Shown here: positions 6,930-41,169 of the stretch, piece by piece | Numbering within the stretch: the stretch's first letter is position 1 | How the letters are laid out: the number at the start of each line of letters is the position of its first letter | Assembly: GCA_016208165.1 (NCBI GenBank) | Contig: JACQYL010000066.1 | Coordinates: 1-64,000 of the forward strand | Direction: 5' to 3' | Source of the DNA: Deltaproteobacteria bacterium | GTDB lineage: Bacteria; Desulfobacterota; Desulfarculia; JACQYL01 | DNA: 64,000 bases | Program-made: the position numbers and the translations under genes | Notes under the pieces: model-generated | The model's input: only the letters and a program-made list of their open reading frames with translations | Databases searched by the model: none | What the model was told of the DNA's origin: nothing

Positions 6930-7334
6930 GTGAAACGCAATGCGAAAATTCTGATCATAGACGACGATTCGGATTTTATCGAAAGCACCAAACTGATTCT
7001 CGAGTCGGGTGGGTATGAGGTAGTCGTCGCCAAGAACGGAACCGAAGGCCTCGAACTGGTTACGCTTGAGGACCCCGATTTGATTATCTTGGACATTATG
7101 ATGGATTCCATGTTCGAGGGCTTTAACGTCAGTGCGGCTCTGAAGATGACCACCGAATACATAGACTACCGGGACACTCCCGTTCTCATGGTCAGCTCGG
7201 TCAGAACCGAGTATGGTGACCGATTCGACGTTCCGGAAGGTGCGGAAGGCATTCAGGGCGATGCTTATATGGATAAGCCGGTGGAACCTAAAGCCTTTCT
7301 GGTCAAGGTCGCGGAACTGCTCAACGCTCACTGA
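6930..7334 (+). CDS. Single-domain response regulator (CheY-like receiver)
   Basis: A 134-residue receiver domain with no output domain. The acidic pocket is DDD at 11-13, the phosphorylated residue is probably Asp55 in LIILDIMMD, the switch Ser is in MVSS, and the lysine is in MDKPVEP near the C-terminus. An insertion-like stretch (TTEYIDYRDTP, RTEYGDRFDVPEGAEG) is longer than in CheY. GTG 6930 is preceded by GAGGGAG; an upstream ATG at 6897 is possible but lies at the predicted transcription start. No kinase gene adjoins, so its partner is elsewhere; the PAS kinase at 60.7-61.9 kb is too far away to assign. Confidence 0.85.
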   Translation: MKRNAKILIIDDDSDFIESTKLILESGGYEVVVAKNGTEGLELVTLEDPDLIILDIMMDSMFEGFNVSAALKMTTEYIDYRDTPVLMVSSVRTEYGDRFDVPEGAEGIQGDAYMDKPVEPKAFLVKVAELLNAH

Positions 7335-7441
7335 CCCTCATTTCGCGCCCGTCAATACTCGTGCCGAAGGTTCCGCTCTTTCTGAGCGAACAATATTGAC
7401 CTGGTCGCATGCATGGGATCTCACTCTTAAATGATCAGACC

Positions 7442-7666
7442 ATGTCCCGGGAAAAGGAACTTGACAAAGAAGGCTGGCGAAAGCAGTTCTTGACCAATGA
7501 GCCGCGTCTGAGCGAAGCTGTCGAAGAGTACAAGGCTCTGGGCTTCGAAGTCCGCCTCGAAGCGGTGGACCTGGACGACGACGATGGCACGTGTAAGGCT
7601 TGCCTCAAGTTCGCGCCCGATGAATTCAAGGTGATCTACACGCGCAAGACCCCTCCCGCCAACTGA
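7442..7666 (+). CDS. Small hypothetical protein with a CxxC motif
   Basis: A 74-residue soluble, charged protein starting MSREKELDKEGW. It has one CKAC-type motif (TCKACLKF) near residue 55 and a run of four aspartates just before it. I do not recognise the family. The chosen ATG follows a weak site; the frame stays open from an ATG at 7409. The high Glu/Lys/Asp content and third-position GC bias are those of a real gene, and it follows the receiver-domain gene by about 110 bases. A metal-binding or redox role for the two cysteines is only a guess. Confidence 0.55.
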   Translation: MSREKELDKEGWRKQFLTNEPRLSEAVEEYKALGFEVRLEAVDLDDDDGTCKACLKFAPDEFKVIYTRKTPPAN

Positions 7667-7990
7667 GACGAAGATCTTTTCTGACCCGCCGTCATCGGTA
7701 GTTCATGTCAGGGTAAGGCGCTTGGGCTCGTTGGACGTCGACGGGCATTCCGGATGTCGGTTGAGGGGGTCGGTTTCGCCGGAAAAACGGAGACTTCGAC
7801 AACGGACATGCGGATCTATCCCGCCTTGCCATGGATTGCGTGATCGCCCGTCCTGGACACGCTTTCAGGCTCTCCAAACTTCCGGAACCGATGTCGCCTT
7901 CTTATCGTCGGCATCGTCGTTAGAGGAGAGCGCCGCGAAATCGGTCGGGAGCTCATCCTGCATTCCCGATAAGCGTTCAAGGAGCGTCAA
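7667..7990. other. Intergenic stretch, no gene seen
   Basis: About 320 bases lie between two small genes. Open frames here have no coding-like composition. Only the AAGGAG site at 7978-7983 that serves the next gene stands out. Confidence 0.5.
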
Positions 7991-8242
7991 ATGCCCCATC
8001 CGAAGGAAAGTCACTGGGTTCGAGTGCATGTTGTGGAAAACCAATTCGAAGCGGACCAGCTCGCGCACGCCTTGAAAGAGGAAGGAATCTCGGTCTGGAT
8101 CAAAGAGTATAAAGATACTGCCTACGATGGGCTATATGTATCCACAAAAGGGTGGGGAGGGCTTTATGTGCCCGAGCCGGACCAGGTTCGAGCGGAAGCG
8201 ATTATTGAAGAAACGGGGAAGGCGTTCGACGAACCGAAGTAG
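7991..8242 (+). CDS. DUF2007-like small protein (putative signal-transducing protein)
   Basis: An 83-residue protein of ferredoxin-like alpha/beta type. The pattern of one beta strand, then NQFEADQLAHALKEEGISVWIKE, then a glycine-rich strand and VPEPDQVRAEAIIEE, matches the DUF2007 family, in which VxVxxxxEAxxxxxxLexxGI is typical. Its role is not known; the family was suggested to bind PII-like or signal partners from sequence alone. The ATG at 7991 has AAGGAG 7 bases upstream. A terminator-like hairpin follows the stop directly. Confidence 0.65.
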   Translation: MPHPKESHWVRVHVVENQFEADQLAHALKEEGISVWIKEYKDTAYDGLYVSTKGWGGLYVPEPDQVRAEAIIEETGKAFDEPK

Positions 8243-8277
8243 CGGGTTTTAGGCGCCCGGATACCCGCGTTCTTTTT
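8242..8277 (+). terminator. Rho-independent terminator after the DUF2007-like gene
   Basis: GCGGGT at 8242-8247 pairs with ACCCGC at 8263-8268 around a GC-rich loop, followed by GTTCTTTTT. The stem begins at the last base of the stop codon. Confidence 0.6.
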
Positions 8278-8416
8278 CCGGGAACCGTAAATCGCCCTAA
8301 GACGATTCGTCCTCCGTCCTGGGTTCCCCACCTTTCCTCAGGCGGAAAAGCGTCTCCCTCACGGAGGAGCGGAATGCGTTGTCCGGAGTCGAACCGTTTC
8401 CGTCTAATTCGGGACA

Positions 8417-8707
8417 TTACCACGAATGCGACATGGCCCCCGGCCGGCACGCGGAAACGCACGGCAAGGGAGGACGTTTTGCCGCAGGTTTACACGGACC
8501 GCACTCGTATTTGATCTTTTTCCGGCGAGCATCGGAAACAACGGCCACGGGCTCCTCACGGAAAGGGTCATTCGGATCTTCATTCAGAACTTCAATCACT
8601 CCGGCGGGACAGGCTTTGGCACAGTCGCCGCAGCCGTTGCACTCGTCCGTATCTATGGTTATGAAATAATCTCCGGACCCGTCCGTATACCCGTAATTCG
8701 CTAACAT
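8417..8707 (-). CDS. Ferredoxin-type 4Fe-4S protein
   Basis: A 96-residue low-potential electron carrier. The first cluster motif is CNGCGDCAKACP at residues 23-34, a standard 4Fe-4S set. The second half has CGPCKP near residue 70, then CVSACRPGAM at the C-terminus, where the spacing CxxCx10CxxxC is wider than in bacterial 2[4Fe-4S] ferredoxins because of the insert AAKRPPLP. It may hold a second cluster with an altered loop. AGGAAA stands before ATG 8707. No oxidoreductase partner adjoins. Family is sure; the second cluster is inference. Confidence 0.8.
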   Translation of the reverse strand: MLANYGYTDGSGDYFITIDTDECNGCGDCAKACPAGVIEVLNEDPNDPFREEPVAVVSDARRKKIKYECGPCKPAAKRPPLPCVSACRPGAMSHSW

Positions 8708-8905
8708 ATGTTTCCTATCAGGAATTTGTTGACCGGATCGACTGACGAGCAGTTCAGGTTTGGTCTACAGGGTGGTTCGGTCGGCAGGAGCCTCTATCCA
8801 GGTCCACCACATCCCGCCTCCCCGTTACAGGCGACGGTCCGAAGGCGGCCATTCCGCCACATCGAGCTGTAAATCATCACAGCATCGGATGCGTCACCAG
8901 CGAGT

Positions 8906-9346
8906 TTACTCAAGCCTTTTCCGCAAGTTGACGAAATTGCTTCGATCGAAGCCGAGGGTTTTGAAGAAAGAAAGAATGTCACCCGAATCCCAGCGAACCG
9001 CCGTGTATACGTCAAGCACGCCTTTGCTTTTGCAGAACTCGAACAAACGCTCCCCAATCGCCTGTCCGATACCCGTACCCATGTGTTTTGGGTCGACGGC
9101 CATCATTTCGATCCAGAAACTTTGTCCCAGCCCGAAGGACCCGAGTTTGATCTCTCCCATCATGAAACCCAATACCCGCCCTCCCATTTCCGCCACGAAG
9201 CCGACTCCTCTGTTCTTCTCGAGGTTCTCGCGGACCAGCATTTCTACTACCGACGGGCTGGGTTTCCGGGTGATTTCGCCATGAATTCGAACAACTTCTT
9301 CGACGTCTTCCTCGCGTAATTCTCTGACTATAAGACCTGGGATCAT
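8906..9346 (-). CDS. GNAT-family N-acetyltransferase
   Basis: A 146-residue GCN5-type acyltransferase. Motif A, the acetyl-CoA pyrophosphate site, is the segment VDPKHMGTGIGQAIGERL near residues 88-105, a variant of the Q/RxxGxG/A loop (here MGTGIG). Motif B follows with VYTAVRWDSGDILSFFKTLGF, where the Asn/Ser pair and FF...LGF are typical. The substrate cannot be told; small-molecule and protein acetylation are both possible. It lies 25 bases upstream of, and on the same strand as, no obvious partner other than the small DUF2080-like gene at 9372-9569, which may share its transcript. Confidence 0.82.
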   Translation of the reverse strand: MIPGLIVRELREEDVEEVVRIHGEITRKPSPSVVEMLVRENLEKNRGVGFVAEMGGRVLGFMMGEIKLGSFGLGQSFWIEMMAVDPKHMGTGIGQAIGERLFEFCKSKGVLDVYTAVRWDSGDILSFFKTLGFDRSNFVNLRKRLE

Positions 9347-9371
9347 AAAGGAACCTTTTGGGGCCGACCGT

Positions 9372-9569
9372 TCAATCGATGCGGATTATTTTTACGTGCT
9401 TACCCACCCAGTCGGGGGGTAGGTACACGCGGCCACTGTTGCCGCTGAGCTTTACTTCTTTGTCGATCATTTCTTCGCCGTAAACCTCAAACCGCACCCT
9501 GTTCCTGTTGGGAGTTTCCTCATCCATTTGAGATTCTCGCTGGCTGTTCGGTGGATCTTTGGGTTTCAT
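9372..9569 (-). CDS. DUF2080-like small protein (putative transposon-encoded type)
   Basis: A 65-residue protein. After a polar N-terminus, the part FEVYGEEMIDKEVKLSGNSGRVYLPPDWVGKHVKIIRID follows the DUF2080 pattern (short AbrB-like beta protein, SGNSGRVYxPxxWxGKxVxVxxxD). This family is labelled transposon-encoded because many archaeal members lie beside transposases; no transposase is seen here. An internal ATG at 9527 could be the true start, and neither start has a strong ribosome site. A DNA-binding antitoxin-like fold is plausible from the AbrB resemblance, but no toxin gene adjoins. Confidence 0.6.
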   Translation of the reverse strand: MKPKDPPNSQRESQMDEETPNRNRVRFEVYGEEMIDKEVKLSGNSGRVYLPPDWVGKHVKIIRID

Positions 9570-9922
9570 GATGTTTTCTTAATATTCATCACAGGTTAAA
9601 CTACTCTTTAGCTACAATGTGACTGTATGATAGCTCTTCGGCGTTGTCAAGGAAAAAGCACCGGCCGGTTCCTGATCAGACGGCTGCTGGTAAGGGTTCG
9701 AGGCCGAAGCACGTTTCACCGATATGGGCTTCTTCCGGGGACTTTCACCAATCAGCGGACCATCGAGCGGGCTCCGGAGGCCCAAGACAACCCGGTTTTT
9801 GTTTGAATTTTCCTGTTTGATCTAGTATTCAGGTAACGCTTTAAGATTCTTTTCATTTTAAGCGACCTAGCGATCCGACGTCCGGTCGGTACACGTACGA
9901 GGTGCGAGGGCCCGTTACGCTT
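9570..9922. other. Intergenic region upstream of the cysK-cysS-like fusion
   Basis: About 350 bases, AT-richer near both ends, separate two divergent genes. Apart from the promoter candidate at 9803-9831 I see no RNA gene, riboswitch core or coding frame. Confidence 0.5.
9803..9831 (+). promoter_or_regulatory. Candidate sigma-70 promoter of the CysK-CysRS-like gene
   Basis: TTGAAT at 9803-9808 and TATTCA at 9826-9831 with a 17-base spacer, about 90 bases before the start codon. Confidence 0.4.
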
Positions 9923-17941: not shown

Positions 17942-20314
17942 ATGGATCAAGAGAGTTTAGAGGATCTTGAGTACCCGGCGTTGCTCAGGCATCTCGCCGA
18001 GTATGCCGTGTCCTCCATAGGCCGTGAGCGGTGTTTGGCCATCAGGCCCAGCCACGACGAATCGACTGTACGTTCTCAGCTCAAAGAGGTCTCCGAAGTC
18101 CAAAGACTGCTGGACAGCGGCGCCGGATGTCCGTTGAGTTCGTTTCCCGAGGTGCGTCCGATTTTGGAACAGGCCTCCATGCCGGGGTTCGCACTGGAAG
18201 GCGAGGACTTTCTAAACGTATTGTCTTTCGTTCAGGCTTCTGAAAACGCGCGAGCTTTTATCCAGGAAGACCGTGCACCCTTCCCTTTTCTGGCTGCCTA
18301 CCTCGCAAAACTGGTCTCCCTGAACGACCTGCAGCAAAGAATCGAACGCACAATCCATATCGACGGAACGGTTCGCGACGACGCCAGTCCTGAACTCGCC
18401 AGGATAAGGCACAGGCTCCCGAAAGAGAAACAGAAAATTCTCGATAGCCTCGAAGGGCTTCTCAGCAAGACTGTGCTCAAGGATGTCTGGCAGGATAAGC
18501 TCATCACCTTTCGGAACGATCGGTACGTAGTGGCTGTGAAGTCCGGTTTGCGTCATGCGCTGCCCGGCATCATCCACGACATGTCCCACAGCAGAGCCAC
18601 CTGCTTCATCGAGCCTTCCCAAACCGTCGAACTGAACAACCAGTTGAGTATGCTGGTTCGCCAGGAGCGCGACGAGGTTCGAAGGATCCTCATGGCCCTT
18701 ACGGATTGCCTCCGCTCGAATATGGACGCCCTACGGACCAATCTCGAGACATTATCCCTACTGGATATGATCTGGTCAAAAGGCAAAATGAGCCGCGCTC
18801 TTGACGCCGTCGAGCCCGAAATCGGTATGGTTGGGCCCGGTTATATCAACGCCACCCATCCCCTGTTGGCTTTTCGCTACAAACGCCTGGGAGGGTTTGC
18901 ACCCAAACCGATCAACCTCGAGTTTCCGGAAGGGATTCGATGTCTTGTGGTTTCAGGGGCCAACATGGGCGGCAAGACCGCCGCGCTCAAGACCTTGGGA
19001 CTCCTGAGTCTAATGGTCCAGTCGGGGTTGCACGCGCCCGCCGGGGAACCTGCCCATGCCGTGGTTTTTGACCAGGTATTCGCTGTAATCGGGGACAATC
19101 AGGACCTGGTGCTTGATTTGAGCACCTTTTCCTCTCAGATGAAACGGATCATGTCCATATTCGAAAAGATAAGTCCCAACTCTTTGGTCCTGCTCGATGA
19201 AATCTGCACGAACACGGATCCGGTCGAGGGAAGCGCGCTGGCGCTGAGCATCCTCGAGAAGCTGGATTCCATGGGCTGTCGAACCCTGGTCACAACCCAT
19301 TACAACGGGTTGAAAGGATACGCCACCACCCGAAGTCATGCGATGAACGTGTCGGTGGACTACGAGGAAACGACGCACACGCCTCTGTATTCACTGACCT
19401 ACGGTGTCCCGGGCGCAAGCAATGCCATTCAGATCGCACGGACGCTGGGGATGTCCCGGGAGATTTTGCAGGCCGCGGAGCATCATCTCTCCCCCGGTGA
19501 CAAACGGACGATCCACTTAATCCAGGACCTGGACAAGACCTACCGTGAGTTGAAAGACACAGAAAAGCGGGTGCGGTTGCTGAAGAGCCAACTGGAAGAA
19601 GCCAAGAAGGCCTACGAGGGGCTTTCCCGTGAACTCGAACGCGAGCGTCATCGTATCCTCACCGAGGAGCGCGAACATGCGAAGCAGTTAGTACGTCGGG
19701 CGGAGTCCAACTTCCGAAGAATATTGCTGAAGGCGAAGCGCCCTCCGGAAGAAGCACCGGATACGACGGATACGACGGGGCTGCAGGATGAGCTGAAACG
19801 AGCGCAGAAGCTCCTGTTGGCGAAGTTGAATCCACCTACGCGAATACCCAGAAAGCCCCAATTGGAACGATTGGTTCCCGGCTGCAGGGTCAGAATCAAA
19901 GGCTCGAATCAGACGGGCGTCCTGGTGTCTCTGGATGATAACGGAGAAGCCGCACAAGTTATCATAAAGGGAATGAAGGTTCGGACTCAGGCCGTCAATC
20001 TTGAATTTGTTCAACCTGCCGCCCCGGTATCCGCGGGCCACCGGGTGGACGTGGATTCGTTCCCACACCCCACTCGAGAGGTGAACCTGCAGGGCATGAC
20101 GGTTGAAGACGCGCTGCAATTTCTGGATAAGACCATAGACAGCGCCCTGATTTCCGGCGTCGATCAGATCGATCTCATACACGGTGTGGGCACGGGAAGA
20201 CTGAAAGCGGCTATCCGGCTTTATCTCAAGGACCACGCCCAGGTCAAAGATTTTCGCCATAAGGAACCTCACCTGGGCGGTGTGGGAGTCACTGAAGTCG
20301 AACTTAGGACGTGA
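17942..20314 (+). CDS. mutS2: Endonuclease MutS2
   Basis: A 790-residue MutS-family protein that acts in suppression of recombination and, in some species, rescue of collided ribosomes. There is no N-terminal mismatch-recognition domain. The core starts MDQESLEDLEYPALLRHLAEYA. Walker A is GANMGGKT at residues 339-346, the Walker B/signature region is VLLDEICTNTDPVEGSALA, and TTHYNGLKGYA follows. A long coiled coil (about 525-600) joins to the C-terminal Smr nuclease domain with VNLQGMTVEDAL and LIHGVGTGRLKAAI. The ATG lies directly after a terminator-like hairpin and has no Shine-Dalgarno sequence. Confidence 0.94.
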   Translation: MDQESLEDLEYPALLRHLAEYAVSSIGRERCLAIRPSHDESTVRSQLKEVSEVQRLLDSGAGCPLSSFPEVRPILEQASMPGFALEGEDFLNVLSFVQASENARAFIQEDRAPFPFLAAYLAKLVSLNDLQQRIERTIHIDGTVRDDASPELARIRHRLPKEKQKILDSLEGLLSKTVLKDVWQDKLITFRNDRYVVAVKSGLRHALPGIIHDMSHSRATCFIEPSQTVELNNQLSMLVRQERDEVRRILMALTDCLRSNMDALRTNLETLSLLDMIWSKGKMSRALDAVEPEIGMVGPGYINATHPLLAFRYKRLGGFAPKPINLEFPEGIRCLVVSGANMGGKTAALKTLGLLSLMVQSGLHAPAGEPAHAVVFDQVFAVIGDNQDLVLDLSTFSSQMKRIMSIFEKISPNSLVLLDEICTNTDPVEGSALALSILEKLDSMGCRTLVTTHYNGLKGYATTRSHAMNVSVDYEETTHTPLYSLTYGVPGASNAIQIARTLGMSREILQAAEHHLSPGDKRTIHLIQDLDKTYRELKDTEKRVRLLKSQLEEAKKAYEGLSRELERERHRILTEEREHAKQLVRRAESNFRRILLKAKRPPEEAPDTTDTTGLQDELKRAQKLLLAKLNPPTRIPRKPQLERLVPGCRVRIKGSNQTGVLVSLDDNGEAAQVIIKGMKVRTQAVNLEFVQPAAPVSAGHRVDVDSFPHPTREVNLQGMTVEDALQFLDKTIDSALISGVDQIDLIHGVGTGRLKAAIRLYLKDHAQVKDFRHKEPHLGGVGVTEVELRT

Positions 20315-26197: not shown

Positions 26198-26577
26198 GTG
26201 CCGGAGTAGTCCAGGTGATCGCCGGCTCTCCTCGTGGGAGCGGGAGGAAAGTCCGAGCTCCACAGGGCGGGGTGGTCCGTAACGCGGACTGGGGGCGACC
26301 CTAAGGAAAGTGCCACAGAAAACAAACCGCCTCCGTATCGGAGGTAAGGGTGAAACGGTGAGGCAAGAGCTCACCAGATTCGATGGTGACATCGAATGCT
26401 AGGTAAACCCCACCCGGAGCAAGACCAAATAGGAGGGCGCTACAAGGCGGCCCGTCTTTTGCCCTCGGGTAGGTCGCTCGAGGTTCCGGGCAACCGGAAT
26501 CCTAGATGAATGATCACCGCCCCGCATCGGGCAACCTGTGCGGGGAACAGAACTCGGCTTATGGACTGCTCCGGCAC
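26198..26577 (+). ncRNA. rnpB: RNase P RNA, class A
   Basis: The catalytic RNA that matures tRNA 5' ends. The end helix P1 pairs GTGCCGGAGTAGTCC at 26198 with GGACTGCTCCGGCAC ending at 26576. Conserved elements are in place: GGAGGAAAGTCCGAGCTCC (CR-I), ACAGAAAACAAACCGCC, GGTAAGGGTGAAACGGTG, GATGAATGATCACC and ACAGAACTCGGCTTA. Length (about 380) is normal for class A. A T-rich run, TTCTTTTTCTC, follows and may be the terminator. The ends are set from the P1 pairing and may be off by a few bases. Confidence 0.95.
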
Positions 26578-34243: not shown

Positions 34244-36283
34244 CTAAGCCGCCTTTTCCAGTCGGACCGAGCAGACTTTCAGCTCCGGTATCTTGGCAAT
34301 GGGATCGAAGGCCGTGTTGGTCAGCACATTGGCCGAGGCCTCCGCGAAATGGAACGGCATGAACACCGTCCCCTTATCCACGCGGTTGGTGATATGGACA
34401 TCCGCCACGATGGATCCCCTTCTGGAAATGAGTTTCGCCGAACCGCCCTCCTTAAGACCGATCTTCTTGGCGTCGTCAGGATTCACTTCCATGAACCCTC
34501 TGGGCATTTCGCGATCCAGGGATGGGGAGTTACGCGTCATGGTGCCGGTGTGATAATGCGCGTACACCCGCCCGGTGCTCAGCCAGAACGGATATTCCTG
34601 GTCCGGTGACTCGGCCGGGGACTTGTATTCGATGGCGTGGAACAGTCCTTTTCCCCGCACGAAACGATCTTTGTGCAGGAACTTGGTGCCCGGATGGTCG
34701 GCCGTGGGGCACGGCCAGCACAAGCCTTCGCCCTCGAGTCGATCATAGGTGATACCACCGTACGAAGGCGTAACCGTGGCTATTTCGTCCTGGATCTCTT
34801 TGGGAGAAGCGTAGTTCGCCCGGTATCCCATACGGCTGATCATGTCCGAGATGATTTCCCAGTCGGCCCGGGCTTCTCCCGGCGGCTCGACGGCCTTTCG
34901 AACCCTCTGAACCCGGCGCTCGGTATTCGCGAATGTCCCGTCCTTTTCGGCGAAAGCGGCTCCGGGTAAGACCACGTGCGCAAGTTCCGCCGTGGGCGTC
35001 ATGAAGATATCGATGACCAGCAGGAAGTCCAACTTCTTCAGGGCATCCACAACATGGTGGGAATCCGGGTCGCTCACAACGGGATTCTCTCCCAGGATCA
35101 CCAGTCCTTTCATCTTGCCCGCGTTGATGGCCGGGAACATGTCCGTGATGGTGAGCCCGAGGTTGGGATCGAGCTTCAGTCCCCACGCCTTTTCGAATTT
35201 CTCGCGCGCCGCATCGCTGGTCACCGGTTGGTAGGCCGGGTATACGTTGGGCAGACCGCCCATGTCGCAGGCCCCCTGCACGTTGTTCTGCCCGCGGAGC
35301 GGGTTCACGCCCGTGGATTCCCGCCCGATCTGACCCGCGATCATGGCCAGGTTGGCAAGGGATTTGACATTGTCTACACCGGTGGTGTGCTGGGTGATGC
35401 CCATGGTATACAGAATGGTGCTCTTTTCGGATTTGGCGTACCATTCCGCGATCTGAACGATGGTCTCAGGCGCCACACCCGTAATCTTAGACACCTTCTC
35501 TGGAGGATAGTTCTCGAGGACAGCGACCAGGGCCTCGAATCCTTCCGTCCGCTCCTTGATAAACGCATCGGCATGCCAGTTGTTCTTGTAAATCGCGTGC
35601 ATGATGCCATTGATGAGCGCCACGTCCGTCCCTAATTTCATGCGGGCGAAAACATCCGCTATGGAGGACATGTGGATCTCTCGCGGATCGCACACGATGA
35701 TCTTGGCTCCCTTGGCCTTGGCGCGGAATACCCGCGTAGCCACCAGCGGATGCGCCACCGTGGTATTCGAGCCGATGATCAGAATACAGTCGGCGTCCTC
35801 GATCTCCGCAATCGAGTTGGTCATGGCGCCGCTGCCGAACGCCGTGGCAAGACCTGCCACGGTGGAAGAGTGTCAGAGACGTGCGCAGTGGTCTACGTTA
35901 TTCGTTCCGATGACCGCCCGCGCGAATTTCTGCAGCAAATAGTTCTCTTCGTTGGTGCACTTGGCCGAAGTGAAAAAACCGATACTGTTCGGACCGTGCT
36001 GGTCCTTGATTTTCTGCAGTTGTTTACAAGCCACATCCATGGCCTCATCCCAGGAAACCTGCTGCAGTTCGTCCACTTTCCGTACATACGGATGGGCGAG
36101 CCGCTTGGGACTACTTATAAACTCGTGGGCTTTCCAGCCCTTGATACACAGTTTGCCTTCGTTGACAGGACCGGTCTTGTTGGGGAGAACCCCGCGTAAT
36201 TTTCCGTCCACAACTTCCAGTATCATGGAACACCCGCAGCCGCAGTAGGGGCAGGTGCTGATGACCGATTTATACATCTCCAT
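34244..36283 (-). CDS. fdhA: Selenocysteine-containing formate dehydrogenase, catalytic subunit
   Basis: A 679-residue molybdenum/tungsten bis-MGD enzyme that oxidises formate or reduces CO2. A 4Fe-4S site is formed by Cys11, Cys14, Cys18 and Cys46. An in-frame TGA at 35875-35873 encodes residue 137 in the context VDHCARL-Sec-HSSTVAGLA, matching the CARxU-H-x3-VAGL site of E. coli FdhF (Sec140). A SECIS hairpin follows after 10 bases. After it come the MGD-binding blocks (ILIIGSNTTVAHP, PLRGQNNVQGACDMG, STGRVYAHYHTGTMTR). Ordinary gene callers would split it in two. AGGAG precedes ATG 36283. No FdhB or FdhC partner is adjacent; maturation genes lie upstream. Confidence 0.95.
35842..35862 (-). 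promoter_or_regulatory. SECIS element of fdhA
   Basis: On the minus strand CCGTGGCA, loop GGTCT and TGCCACGG form a perfect 8-base stem, starting 10 bases after the TGA. The loop GGTCT is the one SelB recognises in the E. coli fdhF SECIS. Confidence 0.9.
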
Positions 36284-36494: not shown

Positions 36495-37304
36495 TCAAGC
36501 CCCCGATTCCGAATGGCCTATTATGCGCCGGAATCCCGAGTAGGCCGTGAATTTGCCGCCCCGTACAAGTCCGATCAGCGTTCTCTTGTACTTTACGCCC
36601 AGTTGGACCGCCAGGTCCGTGGCCGCGTGGCGGGATATCAGCACGGGGAGCCCCATACGGCCGATCTTCAGTACGATCTCCGAAGTGATCCGCCCCGTGG
36701 TGATGAGGATCTTGTTGTCCATGGGTATGCCTTCCATGGCGCACTGGCCGTAAATCTTGTCAACGGCGTTGTGTCTGCCCACGTCCGCGCGGAACACCAG
36801 CAATTCCCTTCCCTCCGCCAGGGCGCAGTTATGCGTGCCGCGCGTCTCCTTATAGAGGCTGGAACTTGCCGTCAGTTCGTGCATCAGGTGAAATATGTCA
36901 TCCGGTCCGATACGCAGGTCGTCCGAGGCTTCCTTGATATCGCCTTCCACCGAAAAGTGGAACGTGGTGCCTCGCCCGCAACCCGTTGTAATAACCGGCT
37001 TCTCGCGCGCCGCGATTCGATCGGACGTGCGATCCTCGGAGGTCCGAACGCGGACCGTCCCCGCCTTCCCGTCAACGTCCACCGACTCTATTCGACCGGC
37101 GTCCCGGATCAATCCCTCGGACAGGCAGAAGCCTACGGCGAGGTAGTCCGGCGCATCGTCGATACACAGCAGCGTCACGATCTCCTCGCCGTTCAGAACG
37201 ATGGTGACAGGAGTTTCCCGGACCACCTGGGTCCGGCTTGCGGTAAAGGACCCCTCCTTGAAAGTGAGGGCCCGCACCTTTCTGGAAACGGTGTGATTCG
37301 ACAT
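36495..37304 (-). CDS. fdhD: FdhD, sulfur-transfer protein for formate dehydrogenase
   Basis: A 269-residue accessory protein that passes sulfur from a cysteine desulfurase to the Mo-bis-MGD cofactor, which makes FDH active. VRETPVTIVLNGEEIVTLLCID at the start, ITTGCGRGT near residue 106 with the important cysteine (only one Cys here, not CxxC as in E. coli), ADVGRHNAVDKIYG, and ITTGRITSEIVLKIGRMGLPVLISRHAAT are the family blocks. It lies 210 bases upstream of fdhA on the same strand, and after the ModE-type gene. Confidence 0.95.
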   Translation of the reverse strand: MSNHTVSRKVRALTFKEGSFTASRTQVVRETPVTIVLNGEEIVTLLCIDDAPDYLAVGFCLSEGLIRDAGRIESVDVDGKAGTVRVRTSEDRTSDRIAAREKPVITTGCGRGTTFHFSVEGDIKEASDDLRIGPDDIFHLMHELTASSSLYKETRGTHNCALAEGRELLVFRADVGRHNAVDKIYGQCAMEGIPMDNKILITTGRITSEIVLKIGRMGLPVLISRHAATDLAVQLGVKYKRTLIGLVRGGKFTAYSGFRRIIGHSESGA

Positions 37305-37345: not shown

Positions 37346-37705
37346 CTATTCGGGGGGCAGGTCCCGCGCGCTCTGCGAGGGGAAAAATTCGACAAAAACG
37401 TGATCGTCCGCTTCGACACAGGCCCGTTTCATGCCGTCGTATCGTTCCACCAGTTCTTCCCCGGCGTGCGTCAATCGGGAACCTCTCTTGTTGTCCGTCT
37501 CGACGATCTTCATGTTCAGGCATTGCTCGGTGGCCTTGACCCTGGCCCAGACCCCTCGATACGACATGCCCAATTCCTTGGCCGTCCGGTTCATGGAGCC
37601 CGTCCTCCGGATGGTCTTGAAAATCTTCAAGCGCCCTTCGCCCATGAACACGTTGCCATCCTCATCCTCGAGCCAATGCTTGGACCGGATCCTGATTTTC
37701 ACCAT
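37346..37705 (-). CDS. ModE N-terminal-type winged-helix protein
   Basis: A 119-residue LysR-like winged-helix protein of the ModE DNA-binding domain type (GRLKIFKTIRRTGSMNRTAKELGMSYRGVWARVKATEQ at about 23-57). The molybdate-binding TOBE domains of full ModE are absent. AGGAGG lies 6 bases before ATG 37705. It sits between moeA-PBP and fdhD, so it probably controls molybdenum or tungsten cofactor genes or FDH. With no ligand domain of its own, it must sense metal through a partner or act as a constitutive factor; similar one-domain proteins are known in sulfate reducers. Confidence 0.85.
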   Translation of the reverse strand: MVKIRIRSKHWLEDEDGNVFMGEGRLKIFKTIRRTGSMNRTAKELGMSYRGVWARVKATEQCLNMKIVETDNKRGSRLTHAGEELVERYDGMKRACVEADDHVFVEFFPSQSARDLPPE

Positions 37706-37743
37706 AGTCGTCCTCCTATACCCTGCAGCGGCCGTGGAAAGGC

Positions 37744-39681
37744 TCACGGGCCGATCTCCGTCCAGAATTCCCCGCTCATTCCCGGATCGTACCCACCCAG
37801 GGACATCATGCGCTCCCGAAATGGCTCCGTCGCCGCCGTATCGAGCAGCATTCGAACCCGTTCGTCTTCCAGGAAAGGAGAAGGAATAACCAGATCGTAC
37901 TGCTCTTGCACCACGGGGATAAAATCCAGATCCAGCGCACGGGCCGCTGCAAAAATTCCCAGTCCCACATCTGAAACACCACTCTTTACGTCCACGGCTA
38001 CAGCCATGTGAGTGTATTCTTCCCTGTCGTATCCGTGAATGGCCGTCGGATCGATCCCCTGCTGTTTCAGGCGGAAATCCAGGAGAATCCGAGTGCCGGA
38101 TCCCGCCTGACGGTTCATGAAGGTGACGTCCTCTCTGGCCAGATCTTCCAGCCCCCGGATGCCCTTGGGGTTGCCTTTTCGAAGGATGAGCCCCTGCTCC
38201 CGCCGCACTAGATGAAACAACGAAACCTTCATGCCCGGGAGGTACTTCTTTACGTAAGAACGATTATACTCGCCGGTGTCCTCCTCGAGGAGGTGGGAAC
38301 CGGCCGCGTGGGCGCAGCCGTTCCGGAGTGCGAGCAGTCCTCCGAGGCTTCCGACATTGGCTGAACTGAGGCGGAATCCCCTGGGGTCCCGTTTCATGAG
38401 GTCTCCCAGAACGTCTATACTCATGTCGTGGCTGCCGATCACCACCAGGGTCCGATCGAGCACTGCGTCTTCCACCAGCAGCTCGGCTTCGGCCTCAGCG
38501 TCACGCGGAAGACCTTCCGAAAATTCTGAAAGCCGGACGATACCCTCGGCCCGAGTCAACGTTGTGATCGAGCCCGCGCCCCTGGGTAACGGCGTGGCGA
38601 CGATGCGGTCATTCACCCTGCCCAGGTTCACCCGCAGAAACTCCTCTACTCCCAGTTTCGATGGGACCGCCCTGGATAGATGTACGCGCACCCGTTTCCG
38701 GGTCTTCTCAGGGATTCCCTGCAAGGCGTACAAGAGCGGCGCGGCGAATTGATCGAAGGAAAGGGTCGCCGACACGGAGTATCCCGGATTACCGATAACC
38801 GGCTTACCGGACACCTCGGCCAGAATGGTGGGTTTTCCGGGCATCATGGCCACGCCGTGCACCAGCACCTCCCCCAACGCCTCCAGAACGTGATACGTGT
38901 AGTCTTCGCTTCCCGCCGAAGATCCCGCGTTGACGATCACCATATGGGCATCCGACTCCACGGCCGTCCGAACGGCCTCGTGGAGGTCTTCGTACACGTC
39001 ACGCACGATGCCCTCGATTCGAGGAATGCCGCCGGATTCCGTGACCATGGCCGAGAGAATCACTGAGTTGGATTCGGGAATTCGCCCTTGAACTCCGACG
39101 CTCTCCGTTCTCTCACCGACAGGGCCCAGCAGTTCATTCCCCGTAGGAATGATCGTCACCCGGGGACGCTTCCAAACGAGAATCCGATCGACGTCGGCCG
39201 CCAACAGAGCGCCCAGATCGTAGGGGCGGATCCGGTGATTCCTGGGAAACAGCAGTTCCGTGGCCACCACGTCCTCGCCGACCTTGCGTACGTTCTCCCA
39301 GGGGTAAGCCGCCGTATGGATCTCGATGAATCCATCCGCGAGTTCCAGGAGCTTTTCCACCATGATCACGGAGTTGGCGCCTTCAGGAATCGGCTGACCG
39401 GTATTGATCCAGAACGCGTCCCGGTTCAGTTTCAATTTCTTGGGAGTGCGCTCCTGGGCGCCGTAAGTCCGTTCCGCGTGCACGGCCACACCGTCCATGG
39501 CCGCGGCATGAAAAGGCGGGGAAGAAATCCCGGCAAACACCGGATGGGAAGTGATCCTCCCGAGCCCCTCCAATACGGAAATCTCCTCCTCGCCCAGCAG
39601 GTTCCTGCCTGCAAAGCGATTCAACCACAATTCACGCGCTTCAACAAGGGACTTCATTTTCAGATAGATTTTGCGTTTCAT
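37744..39681 (-). CDS. MoeA fused to a periplasmic-binding-protein-like domain
   Basis: A 645-residue protein. Residues 1-410 are MoeA, the molybdotransferase that inserts metal into adenylated molybdopterin: IPTGNELL, VNAGSSAGSEDYT, MPGKPTILAEVSGKPVIGNPGYSVSA and the C-terminal MoeA-C region. Residues 415-645 match the PBP-like domain of LysR/ModA-related proteins (LSSANVGSLGGLLALRNG, MNRQAGSGTRILLDFRLKQQGID, VKSGVSDVGLGIFAAA). This fusion is known in anaerobes. The domain could hold a tetrahedral oxyanion or a nucleotide-type ligand. It lacks a signal peptide and is cytosolic. ATG 39681 follows AGGGG. Confidence 0.9.
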   Translation of the reverse strand: MKRKIYLKMKSLVEARELWLNRFAGRNLLGEEEISVLEGLGRITSHPVFAGISSPPFHAAAMDGVAVHAERTYGAQERTPKKLKLNRDAFWINTGQPIPEGANSVIMVEKLLELADGFIEIHTAAYPWENVRKVGEDVVATELLFPRNHRIRPYDLGALLAADVDRILVWKRPRVTIIPTGNELLGPVGERTESVGVQGRIPESNSVILSAMVTESGGIPRIEGIVRDVYEDLHEAVRTAVESDAHMVIVNAGSSAGSEDYTYHVLEALGEVLVHGVAMMPGKPTILAEVSGKPVIGNPGYSVSATLSFDQFAAPLLYALQGIPEKTRKRVRVHLSRAVPSKLGVEEFLRVNLGRVNDRIVATPLPRGAGSITTLTRAEGIVRLSEFSEGLPRDAEAEAELLVEDAVLDRTLVVIGSHDMSIDVLGDLMKRDPRGFRLSSANVGSLGGLLALRNGCAHAAGSHLLEEDTGEYNRSYVKKYLPGMKVSLFHLVRREQGLILRKGNPKGIRGLEDLAREDVTFMNRQAGSGTRILLDFRLKQQGIDPTAIHGYDREEYTHMAVAVDVKSGVSDVGLGIFAAARALDLDFIPVVQEQYDLVIPSPFLEDERVRMLLDTAATEPFRERMMSLGGYDPGMSGEFWTEIGP

Positions 39682-39696
39682 GCTTGACCCCTGCGG

Positions 39697-40935
39697 CTAA
39701 TGCCTCAGATTCAACACTTGCACTTCATCTCCCTCGTAGAGGCCCTCGGTGTTGCGATCGATCCGCACCAGACCGTCGGCTTCCACCAGCGTGGAAATGA
39801 GGCCGGATTTGCCCAAAACAGGAATGGCCACCCACCCGTCAGACTCCCGCGCCAACCGGACCCGTATGAAATCGTCGCGCCCTTGCGCCGAAGCCAGGTT
39901 GCGGCTGAGCCGGGCCGAGATCCGTCCAAAAGGCCCGTCGTCGGTGGTTGGCTTTCCGCTCAGCACGTTCAGCATGGGCCGAATAAACACCATAAACACG
40001 ACCATGGCCGAAGCCACATGGCCCGGTATACCCCAGACCGATTTCGCGCCTGTCCGAGCCAGGATGGTGGGCTTGCCCGGGCTGATGCTTACGCCGTGAA
40101 CCAGGATCTCCGAATCGGGCAGAGACCGGAACACGGACAGGGTAAAATCTCGAGCGCCCACGGAACTTCCCCCGGATATCAGGAGCATGTCGGCCGACTC
40201 GAGACCCTCGGTCGTTTTACATTTCAGGGCCTCGAAATCGTCCCGCACTAGCCCCAGGTCGAACACCAGGGCCCCGGCCTGCCGGCTCAAGGCTGCCAGG
40301 GTCACGCTGTTGATGTCCCGGACCTGCCCTGCTCCGGGCGTTTCCCCGGGTGAAACCAGTTCATCTCCGGTGGACAGGATGGCGACCCGGGGTCGACGGA
40401 AGACCGGGACGTTCCGGATACCGAGGCCCGCCAGGAGCCCCAGTTCCTGAGCCCTCAGCACGGCGCCCTTTCCGATCACCGTCTGTCCCAGGGCCACGTC
40501 TTCACCTGGTTGGATGACGTTCTCCCAGGGGGTCAGCGACTTCGAGATCTCGATCGTTTGCCCATCGAGGGCATGGGAATATTCCGCCATGACTACCGCA
40601 TCCGCACCCCTGGGCAGCATTCCGCCCGTGGGAATGCGCGCCGCCTCGCCCGGTCCGAGTTCAAACTCCGCTTCTTCCGCCATGCCGATGTCGCCCGCAA
40701 TATGGAGCAGGGCCGGCATCTGCTCGGATCCGCCGAACGTATCGCGGGCCCTTACCGCGTAGCCATCCACTGTTGAACGGGGAAACGGCGGAAGGTCCTC
40801 AGGGGACGTCACAGGTTCGGCCAAGACCCGGTCGAGGGCGTCGTCCAGGACAATGGTCTCCGGTTCCAGGGGGCCGAACGATTGAACGATTTCGAGGACT
40901 TTTTCCGTACTCACAACATTGAAAAACAGTTCCAT
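39697..40935 (-). CDS. moeA: Molybdopterin molybdotransferase MoeA
   Basis: A 412-residue MoeA of the plain type: PFPRSTVDGYAVRARDT near 50, RIPTGGMLPRGADAVVM, AILSTGDELVSPGE, LLISGGSSVGARDFT and ISPGKPTILARTGAKSVWGIPGHVASA. It inserts molybdate or tungstate into molybdopterin. The start is ATG 40935, with GGAG 7 bases upstream; a longer frame reaches 40998. It lies 15 bases before the second, PBP-fused MoeA. Two MoeA forms side by side are often taken as a sign of separate handling of Mo and W; that is inference here. Confidence 0.93.
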   Translation of the reverse strand: MELFFNVVSTEKVLEIVQSFGPLEPETIVLDDALDRVLAEPVTSPEDLPPFPRSTVDGYAVRARDTFGGSEQMPALLHIAGDIGMAEEAEFELGPGEAARIPTGGMLPRGADAVVMAEYSHALDGQTIEISKSLTPWENVIQPGEDVALGQTVIGKGAVLRAQELGLLAGLGIRNVPVFRRPRVAILSTGDELVSPGETPGAGQVRDINSVTLAALSRQAGALVFDLGLVRDDFEALKCKTTEGLESADMLLISGGSSVGARDFTLSVFRSLPDSEILVHGVSISPGKPTILARTGAKSVWGIPGHVASAMVVFMVFIRPMLNVLSGKPTTDDGPFGRISARLSRNLASAQGRDDFIRVRLARESDGWVAIPVLGKSGLISTLVEADGLVRIDRNTEGLYEGDEVQVLNLRH

Positions 40936-41169
40936 CCAACACTCCGCGCGTCCGGGCGACACGCTCTCCGCAAATCCAACCCGCCGGCAAAATTCCACGA
41001 ATCGGAAAGGGAGGAAACAGTTTCCAGGACATTTAAGGACCGAACACGAAAACGATAATGATTATGTCACACACGATATAACTATGCAAGTCCGGAATGG
41101 AACGGGGTATCGGGTGGATTCGAGCGCGAAGCCGCTCCACGACTCGGTTCGGGATGGAGATTTGGAATT

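Follow-up and report, generated by a model that had tools for sequence, protein, structure and literature searches.

The window analysed here, a stretch of 64,000 nucleotides from a bacterium of the phylum Desulfobacterota (assembly GCA_016208165.1, contig JACQYL010000066.1, positions 1 to 64,000), carries on its minus strand five genes connected with molybdenum or tungsten (Mo/W) cofactors. In the direction of transcription they are moeA (39697-40935), encoding a molybdopterin molybdotransferase without a periplasmic-binding-protein-like (PBP) domain according to domain and family profile matches; moeA-PBP (37744-39681), encoding a 645-residue protein of the NF011068/PRK14498 family (profile matches, an AlphaFold2 [AF2] model and Foldseek); a gene for a one-domain ModE-type winged-helix regulator of 119 residues, without TOBE domain (37346-37705; PF00126, TIGR00637, AF2); fdhD (36495-37304), for the sulfurtransferase that serves the formate dehydrogenase cofactor (profile matches); and fdhA (34244-36283), a putative operon member encoding the formate dehydrogenase alpha subunit (TIGR01591, 867.6 bits against a cut-off of 666). 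That these five genes share one strand had been stated in an original prediction made from the sequence letters, and the profile matches confirm it. The start of moeA was set at the ATG at 40935, also the end coordinate of the original prediction, from the N-termini of homologues, the longest open reading frame (ORF) opening at 40998; fdhA is a single frame only if an in-frame TGA (35873-35875) is read as selenocysteine, in the context CARL-U-HSS; and AGGAGG precedes the ATG of the one-domain modE. Other families of the phylum show the same order of genes, which is therefore more than chance. We consider it probable that these genes form a W/Mo cofactor operon with a regulon attached, and that the one-domain ModE is an autoregulator which binds a predicted palindrome upstream of moeA and controls W/Mo genes elsewhere.

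The fusion itself is not new. We rejected that idea because the protein belongs to a known family (NF011068; PMC11733289), in which it scores 725.4 bits against a curated cut-off of 534. Its domains are MoeA_N, MoCF_biosynth and MoeA_C, followed by the PBP_like domain PF12727 (residues 428-615, positions 37837-38400 on the minus strand, 2.5e-73). The MoeA1/MoeA-PBP proteins already described (archaeal MoeA1 and DVU0951) likewise have the same MoeA domains and then PF12727, with a second, plain moeA in the genome, and oxyanion capture and tungsten use were proposed for them (PMC11733289, PMC10102598). As far as these two papers could be consulted, they connect the fusion neither with a one-domain ModE nor with any operator or mobB/fdhD operon. 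The AF2 model of the window protein (pLDDT 77.9) has the MoeA fold by Foldseek; with the whole protein as query, the matches listed were taken up by MoeA entries. Comparison of the PBP domain with solved structures by sequence alone gave nothing convincing, and a profile search gave weak matches to phosphate- and sulfate-type binding proteins. The same domain family also forms the C-terminal domain of helix-turn-helix (HTH)-PBP regulators found in Mo/W context, with which many residues are shared; one HTH-PBP protein with PF12727 is encoded in the window's own genome. This kinship supports the original proposal that the domain is of oxyanion-binding type, and most likely it feeds the oxyanion to MoeA. 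Such channelling was proposed earlier (PMC11733289), in a paper that covers the fusion, a groove to the active site and co-occurrence with TupA. The suggestion that the domain might select molybdenum over tungsten fares less well, as the pointers favour tungsten, which would then be the main metal: an aldehyde:ferredoxin oxidoreductase (AOR) gene lies in the predicted regulon, TupA co-occurs with the fusion (PMC11733289), and the tungsten cofactor of Aor in D. vulgaris depends on both moeA genes, DVU0951 (the fusion) and DVU2990 (plain) (PMC10102598).

The regulator matches only the DNA-binding half of ModE (PF00126, 2.5e-12; TIGR00637, E 5.1e-17 and 61.7 bits, below the cut-off of 98.5), so a ModE-type winged-helix domain is present. 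Pfam finds no TOBE/Mop molybdate-binding domain in the 119 residues, as the original prediction had said of its metal-sensing part, and the genome's four TOBE matches are on other contigs; its TIGR00637 matches point to one ModE-type protein. The AF2 model, a monomer (pLDDT 93.3), superposes best on the DNA-binding part of E. coli ModE (1b9m_A) with a VIA Z of 14.5 and a root-mean-square deviation of 2.2 over 102 residues. The fold of this half is thus common to both proteins, whereas the TOBE domains occur only in the E. coli protein (1b9m, 1o7l). One-domain ModE proteins of Desulfovibrio and D. psychrophila likewise consist of a single DNA-binding domain with no molybdate-binding domains, and how they sense metal was called unclear in 2004 (PMC545781). 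What sets the protein studied here apart from those is its clade, in which one cysteine is invariant, and its place in a moeA-moeA-PBP operon.

By alignment and AF2 this cysteine is Cys96 (codon 37418-37420, minus strand), in the last helix together with Lys93 and Asp100. Scanning with a ModE alignment, one genome per species, left 80 loci; C96 is present in 78 of them and in the window, and in none of the 24 other one-domain ModE proteins compared (the two exceptions, L236 and L245, were retained among the 34 unlinked or short loci). Set against 26 other rows, the clade has K93 at 0.94 versus 0.04, C96 at 1.0 versus 0 and D100 at 0.91 versus 0. The signature maps to one gain on the ModE tree (support 98), a tree built on few columns and weak in its inside. 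The window gene has both features that define the clade, Cys96 and a position directly behind moeA-PBP, and sequence comparison places its product in this distinct one-domain clade with a K-x2-C-x3-D signature in the last helix. All three residues fall within helix 80-107 of the model and, judged by their spacing, would face one side of it. In LysR-type DNA-binding domains the last helix is the dimer helix.

Could this ModE then sense on its own, the K93-x2-C96-x3-D100 face serving across the dimer, for instance, as a switch of the thiol, persulfide or metal type? The clade-wide conservation of the three residues within one helix and the single gain of the signature speak for it, FdhD is a sulfurtransferase, and the named hosts include sulfate reducers. 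The same conservation may however serve the dimer fold or protein contacts, and a like palindrome lies near both ModE groups, so that DNA recognition does not depend on the cysteine. We regard self-sensing as a tentative possibility and a doubtful one.

The predicted operator of the window (41060-41083, without strand) has its core, TTATATCG-N4-TGACATAA, at 41062-41081, some 127 bp before the start codon of moeA; the full form of the palindrome is TTATGTCA-N4-TGACATAA. It differs from the E. coli ModE operator (ATCGNTATATA-N6-TATATANCGAT) and from the site predicted before mod genes for the earlier one-domain ModE (CGGTCACG-N14-CGTGACCG; PMC545781). A dyad count that presupposed no motif found ATGTC-N6-GACAT in 22 of 40 moeA upstream regions (39 loci with modE linked to the operon, plus the window) and in none of their shuffles. 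The first scoring matrix had included the window; in a repeat run trained without it the window site scored 23.5, the next best in the 64 kb being 5.7, and over 50 shuffled windows the maximum score averaged 7.5 and reached 17.6 at most. Leave-one-out matrices recovered the site in 33 of the 39 other loci. A sigma-70 scan showed no promoter-like match near moeA. A molybdenum cofactor riboswitch as the input was set aside, as neither the window nor L166, L172, L204, L214 or L075 has an Rfam match to one at gathering thresholds.

Comparison across genomes ties the palindrome to modE in the operon. Of the 43 linked loci with a moeA ORF, 38 have the site within reach of moeA; among the five without it, three lie at contig edges. 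By contrast, the site precedes moeA in none of 20 moeA-PBP loci whose genomes lack this ModE. These control loci came from 18 of the 43 genomes of a phylum sample that have the fusion only, plus G171, which has a ModE of another type (E 1.2e-25) tallied as ModE in the phylum count, and G315, from a class sample. Five of them (L268, L271, L272, L273 and L274) have MoeA-PBP without a plain moeA ORF beside it, and the control for moeA proper therefore rests on the other 15. G147, G171 and G315, which are nested in the same MoeA-PBP clade but have neither this modE nor the site, appear to have lost the gene. A second control set comprised 20 of the 26 genomes whose clade ModE is not directly behind moeA-PBP and which carry MoeA-PBP elsewhere, and in all 20 the site was equally absent before moeA; 19 of these 20 have a plain moeA ORF, L316 showing none. 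That the palindrome follows modE in the operon fits the expectation for an autoregulator.

Does the palindrome perhaps belong to another Mo/W regulator (TaoR, an integrase-TOBE protein or an XRE-PBP protein), with modE only a passenger? TaoR, an HTH plus PBP-like regulator that shares the PBP_like domain and the Mo/W context, regulates aor in D. vulgaris, as cited in PMC11980592, and the site also occurs before a TaoR-like gene and an XRE-PBP gene (L291, L293). In TaoR and the XRE-PBP regulators HTH and PBP are in one chain, whereas the window has two genes and an HTH of ModE type. At eight loci (L075, L077, L080, L136, L139, L151, L157 and L162) a one-domain ModE gene of another type is separated by a like site from a neighbouring moeA, fdh or tupA gene. 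The genomes of the first three (G031, G027 and G020), like that of the window, have no strong PF12727 match of the excisionase-HTH type, which argues for a site of the one-domain ModE family and not of TaoR. Moreover G147 and G315 do encode a further PF12727 protein, similar in size to HTH-PBP proteins, yet without the clade ModE they have no site at moeA, and site and operon modE go together as described. We consider another owner highly unlikely.

How general is the pairing of ModE with MoeA-PBP? An evenly drawn sample of 197 genomes of the phylum was searched, with PF12727 matches listed down to E 3.8e-56. Matches starting inside the HTH of LysR-type proteins were dropped from the ModE count, and the 88 ModE genomes that remained include a few full-length ModE proteins (e.g. 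L164, L165). Among the matches listed, 49 genomes have both, 39 ModE only, 43 the fusion only and 66 neither, and the notion of one-domain ModE and fusion as a general pair was rejected (odds ratio 1.9). Within the clade the picture is different. MoeA-PBP ends less than 600 bp upstream of modE on the same strand in 46 of the 80 loci, usually with moeA before and mobB after; 13 of the other 34 have less than 1.5 kb of upstream sequence, 26 of the 34 genomes carry MoeA-PBP elsewhere, and one more has a fusion fragment upstream of modE. In the class of G088 (48 genomes, counted by hand) 42 have this ModE, all of them with MoeA-PBP as well, and in 41 the two genes are neighbours. The fusion occurs without this ModE in three genomes (G147, G171 and G315), and another three have neither. 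The 80 loci and the genomes of this class overlap in part, and the two counts are not independent. The co-occurrence proposed originally thus stands as a near-obligatory pairing inside one ModE clade but not for one-domain ModE proteins overall, which are nearly as common without the fusion. Judged from sequence, the pairing occurs in many sulfate-reducing bacteria and relatives.

Other one-domain ModE types were seen at modABC clusters (L144, L147, L159, L161 and L110-L114). The family seems to be split by target (mod, tup, fdh or moeA).

A pairing this tight would suit a sharper form of the original idea of a missing sensor, in which MoeA-PBP is the sensor in trans, its empty or loaded PBP domain binding or releasing the one-domain ModE and so coupling metal supply to the operon. 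The clade ModE is never without the fusion in the class of G088, whereas the fusion occurs without it in three genomes; the 80 loci give a similar picture; and TaoR, cited as a regulator of the tungsten enzyme Aor (PMC11980592), combines an HTH with a PBP-like domain. On the other hand, among the matches listed 43 of the 92 MoeA-PBP genomes have no ModE match, which implies that the PBP domain has a job of its own, and 39 of the 88 ModE genomes have no MoeA-PBP. No fusion of HTH_ModE with PBP was found among the 13 PF12727 rows shorter than 450 residues, one of which (L009) is a piece of MoeA-PBP lying at the end of a contig. Also, since the pathway has moeA among its core genes, a dependence of modE on moeA can be trivial. 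Two ModE-HTH proteins instead carry a MobB-like domain in the same chain (L082, 8444-9466, minus strand; L087, 2807-3835, minus strand), with a Pfam MobB match of 1.3e-6 in L087, the only one of the two run against Pfam. MobB is therefore a third candidate partner of ModE; we found no description of this architecture in the cited literature as far as its text was available. Sensing in trans by MoeA-PBP is in our view conceivable but doubtful. In a combined form, a two-protein metal sensor, MoeA-PBP would be insertase and sensor at once and would set DNA binding by ModE through its PBP domain and the K93/C96/D100 face of the last ModE helix; what the cell reads would then be how far the insertase is loaded, and not free oxyanion. 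This form we would call unlikely.

The pairing could also be ordinary synteny, modE and moeA-PBP being inherited vertically in one operon and sharing only common regulation. All 80 matches look like one phylum by their titles, and mobB and other maturation genes travel along. But in the MoeA-PBP tree the window protein groups not with its own class but with the operons of another, that of G088 (support 98), whose ModE proteins are also the nearest to that of the window. Relatives in the window's own class carry a different one-domain ModE, divergent from moeA-moeA-PBP and often followed by an ABC transporter of the Mod/Tup type. The tree placement suggests that the operon reached the window's lineage by transfer, and we think mere vertical synteny rather improbable.

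The palindrome also stands at other genes. A strict pattern, TATRTCRNNNNYGAYATA, was designed after the window site was known, and its reverse served as the control. The window genome has three matches (control, 0): one at the moeA operon, one that precedes an AFOR_N ORF (E 7.5e-66) by 84 bp, and one at the start of a Porin_O_P ORF. The last is two overlapping palindromes by matrix matches (L282, 4543-4582; genome contig C46), and tungstate or molybdate may cross the outer membrane through this porin. Nineteen hand-picked genomes gave 38 matches against 6 for the control; in the phylum sample there were 56 sites against 12 in the ModE genomes and 21 against 13 in the remainder. Ten proteins picked from 20 site loci, those of the window genome among them, were checked by Pfam; in other genomes the targets are AOR (two), the xanthine-dehydrogenase type, the formate dehydrogenase type, MoaA, molybdopterin oxidoreductase types and an XRE-PBP regulator; enzyme genes are thus found at several sites. 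No clear Mo/W gene was seen behind the sites at L287-L289, L292, L294 and L299-L301, and those of L300 and L301 fall inside ORFs.

Taken together, the preferred reading, the autoregulated W/Mo operon and regulon, would work as follows. MoeA and MoeA-PBP would perform metal insertion, with the PBP domain as a cytoplasmic oxyanion-capture domain serving the MoeA active site; its ligand is presumably such an oxyanion. FdhD, or MobB in most relatives, would act later in cofactor maturation. The one-domain ModE would bind the TTATGTCA-N4-TGACATAA palindrome upstream of moeA and, with whichever sign, regulate its own operon, and would also control some W/Mo enzyme or uptake genes, here those for aldehyde:ferredoxin oxidoreductase and the porin. 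Because this ModE has no ligand domain of its own, we favour as its input a signal from the cofactor machinery or one received through the C96 thiol, the leading candidates being MoeA-PBP in trans and the cysteine itself. A comparable set of genes acts together in Methylorubrum extorquens, where a moeA paralogue, mobB and fdhD constitute a tungsten-specific pathway (MoeA1-MobB-FdhD) for a tungsten formate dehydrogenase (PMC13197769); in that paper, to the extent that its text was available, the terms PBP and periplasmic binding are absent and no ModE-type regulator is reported.

Several observations weigh against the autoregulator and its regulon. Across the phylum co-occurrence of ModE and MoeA-PBP is weak at genome level (among the matches listed, the fusion is present in 49 of 88 ModE genomes and in 43 of the 109 others; odds ratio 1.9, p 0.03), and in 34 of the 80 loci ModE is not seen directly behind MoeA-PBP. 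In genomes with an unlinked ModE moeA has no site, so the tie between operator and moeA holds only with modE in the operon. A related palindrome, of the TATGTTA-N4-TAACATA type, is upstream of only 4 of 28 unlinked modE genes, and the site may therefore vary within the clade. In G213, which belongs to the clade and carries the operon, the moeA locus (L129) has no site scoring at least 14. Finally, the strict pattern is absent from 57 of the 88 ModE genomes of the phylum sample.

For the pairing of modE with this operon, the TTATGTCA-N4-TGACATAA operator and the cysteine signature we found no published description in the open literature. What appears new, then, is the pairing of the clade ModE with the already known moeA-PBP and, as a prediction, a one-domain ModE that autoregulates a W/Mo insertase operon, with its operator and regulon. 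If the two-protein sensor were true, it would answer how a one-domain ModE senses metal, the question left by PMC545781. A defined protein pair, a predicted operator, a short target list and three clade-specific residues make that question testable, and the system points to how anaerobes may couple assembly of the tungsten cofactor to expression of AOR and formate dehydrogenase.

The genome (5.7 Mb in 142 contigs) encodes further candidate Mo/W sensors, and the one-domain ModE is thus an additional regulator. An XRE-HTH plus PBP_like protein (L039, 6116-7054, minus strand; contig C100) is divergent from modABC (7205-9798, plus strand) and is a candidate molybdate sensor, with a TaoR-like layout but a different type of HTH. 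A second XRE-PBP protein, with an upstream palindrome, is found in L293. An integrase-like protein with two TOBE domains (L119, 4879-5988, minus strand; contig C52) resembles the integrase-MOP chimeras of PMC545781. The genome also holds tupABC and a third moeA, beside mobB. Two RNA genes were called elsewhere in the window: a tmRNA of 669 bases by ARAGORN (18685-19353, minus strand), a starred call with no Rfam match at the gathering threshold that may be false, and a class A RNase P RNA (26203-26576, plus strand; Rfam, 331 bits).

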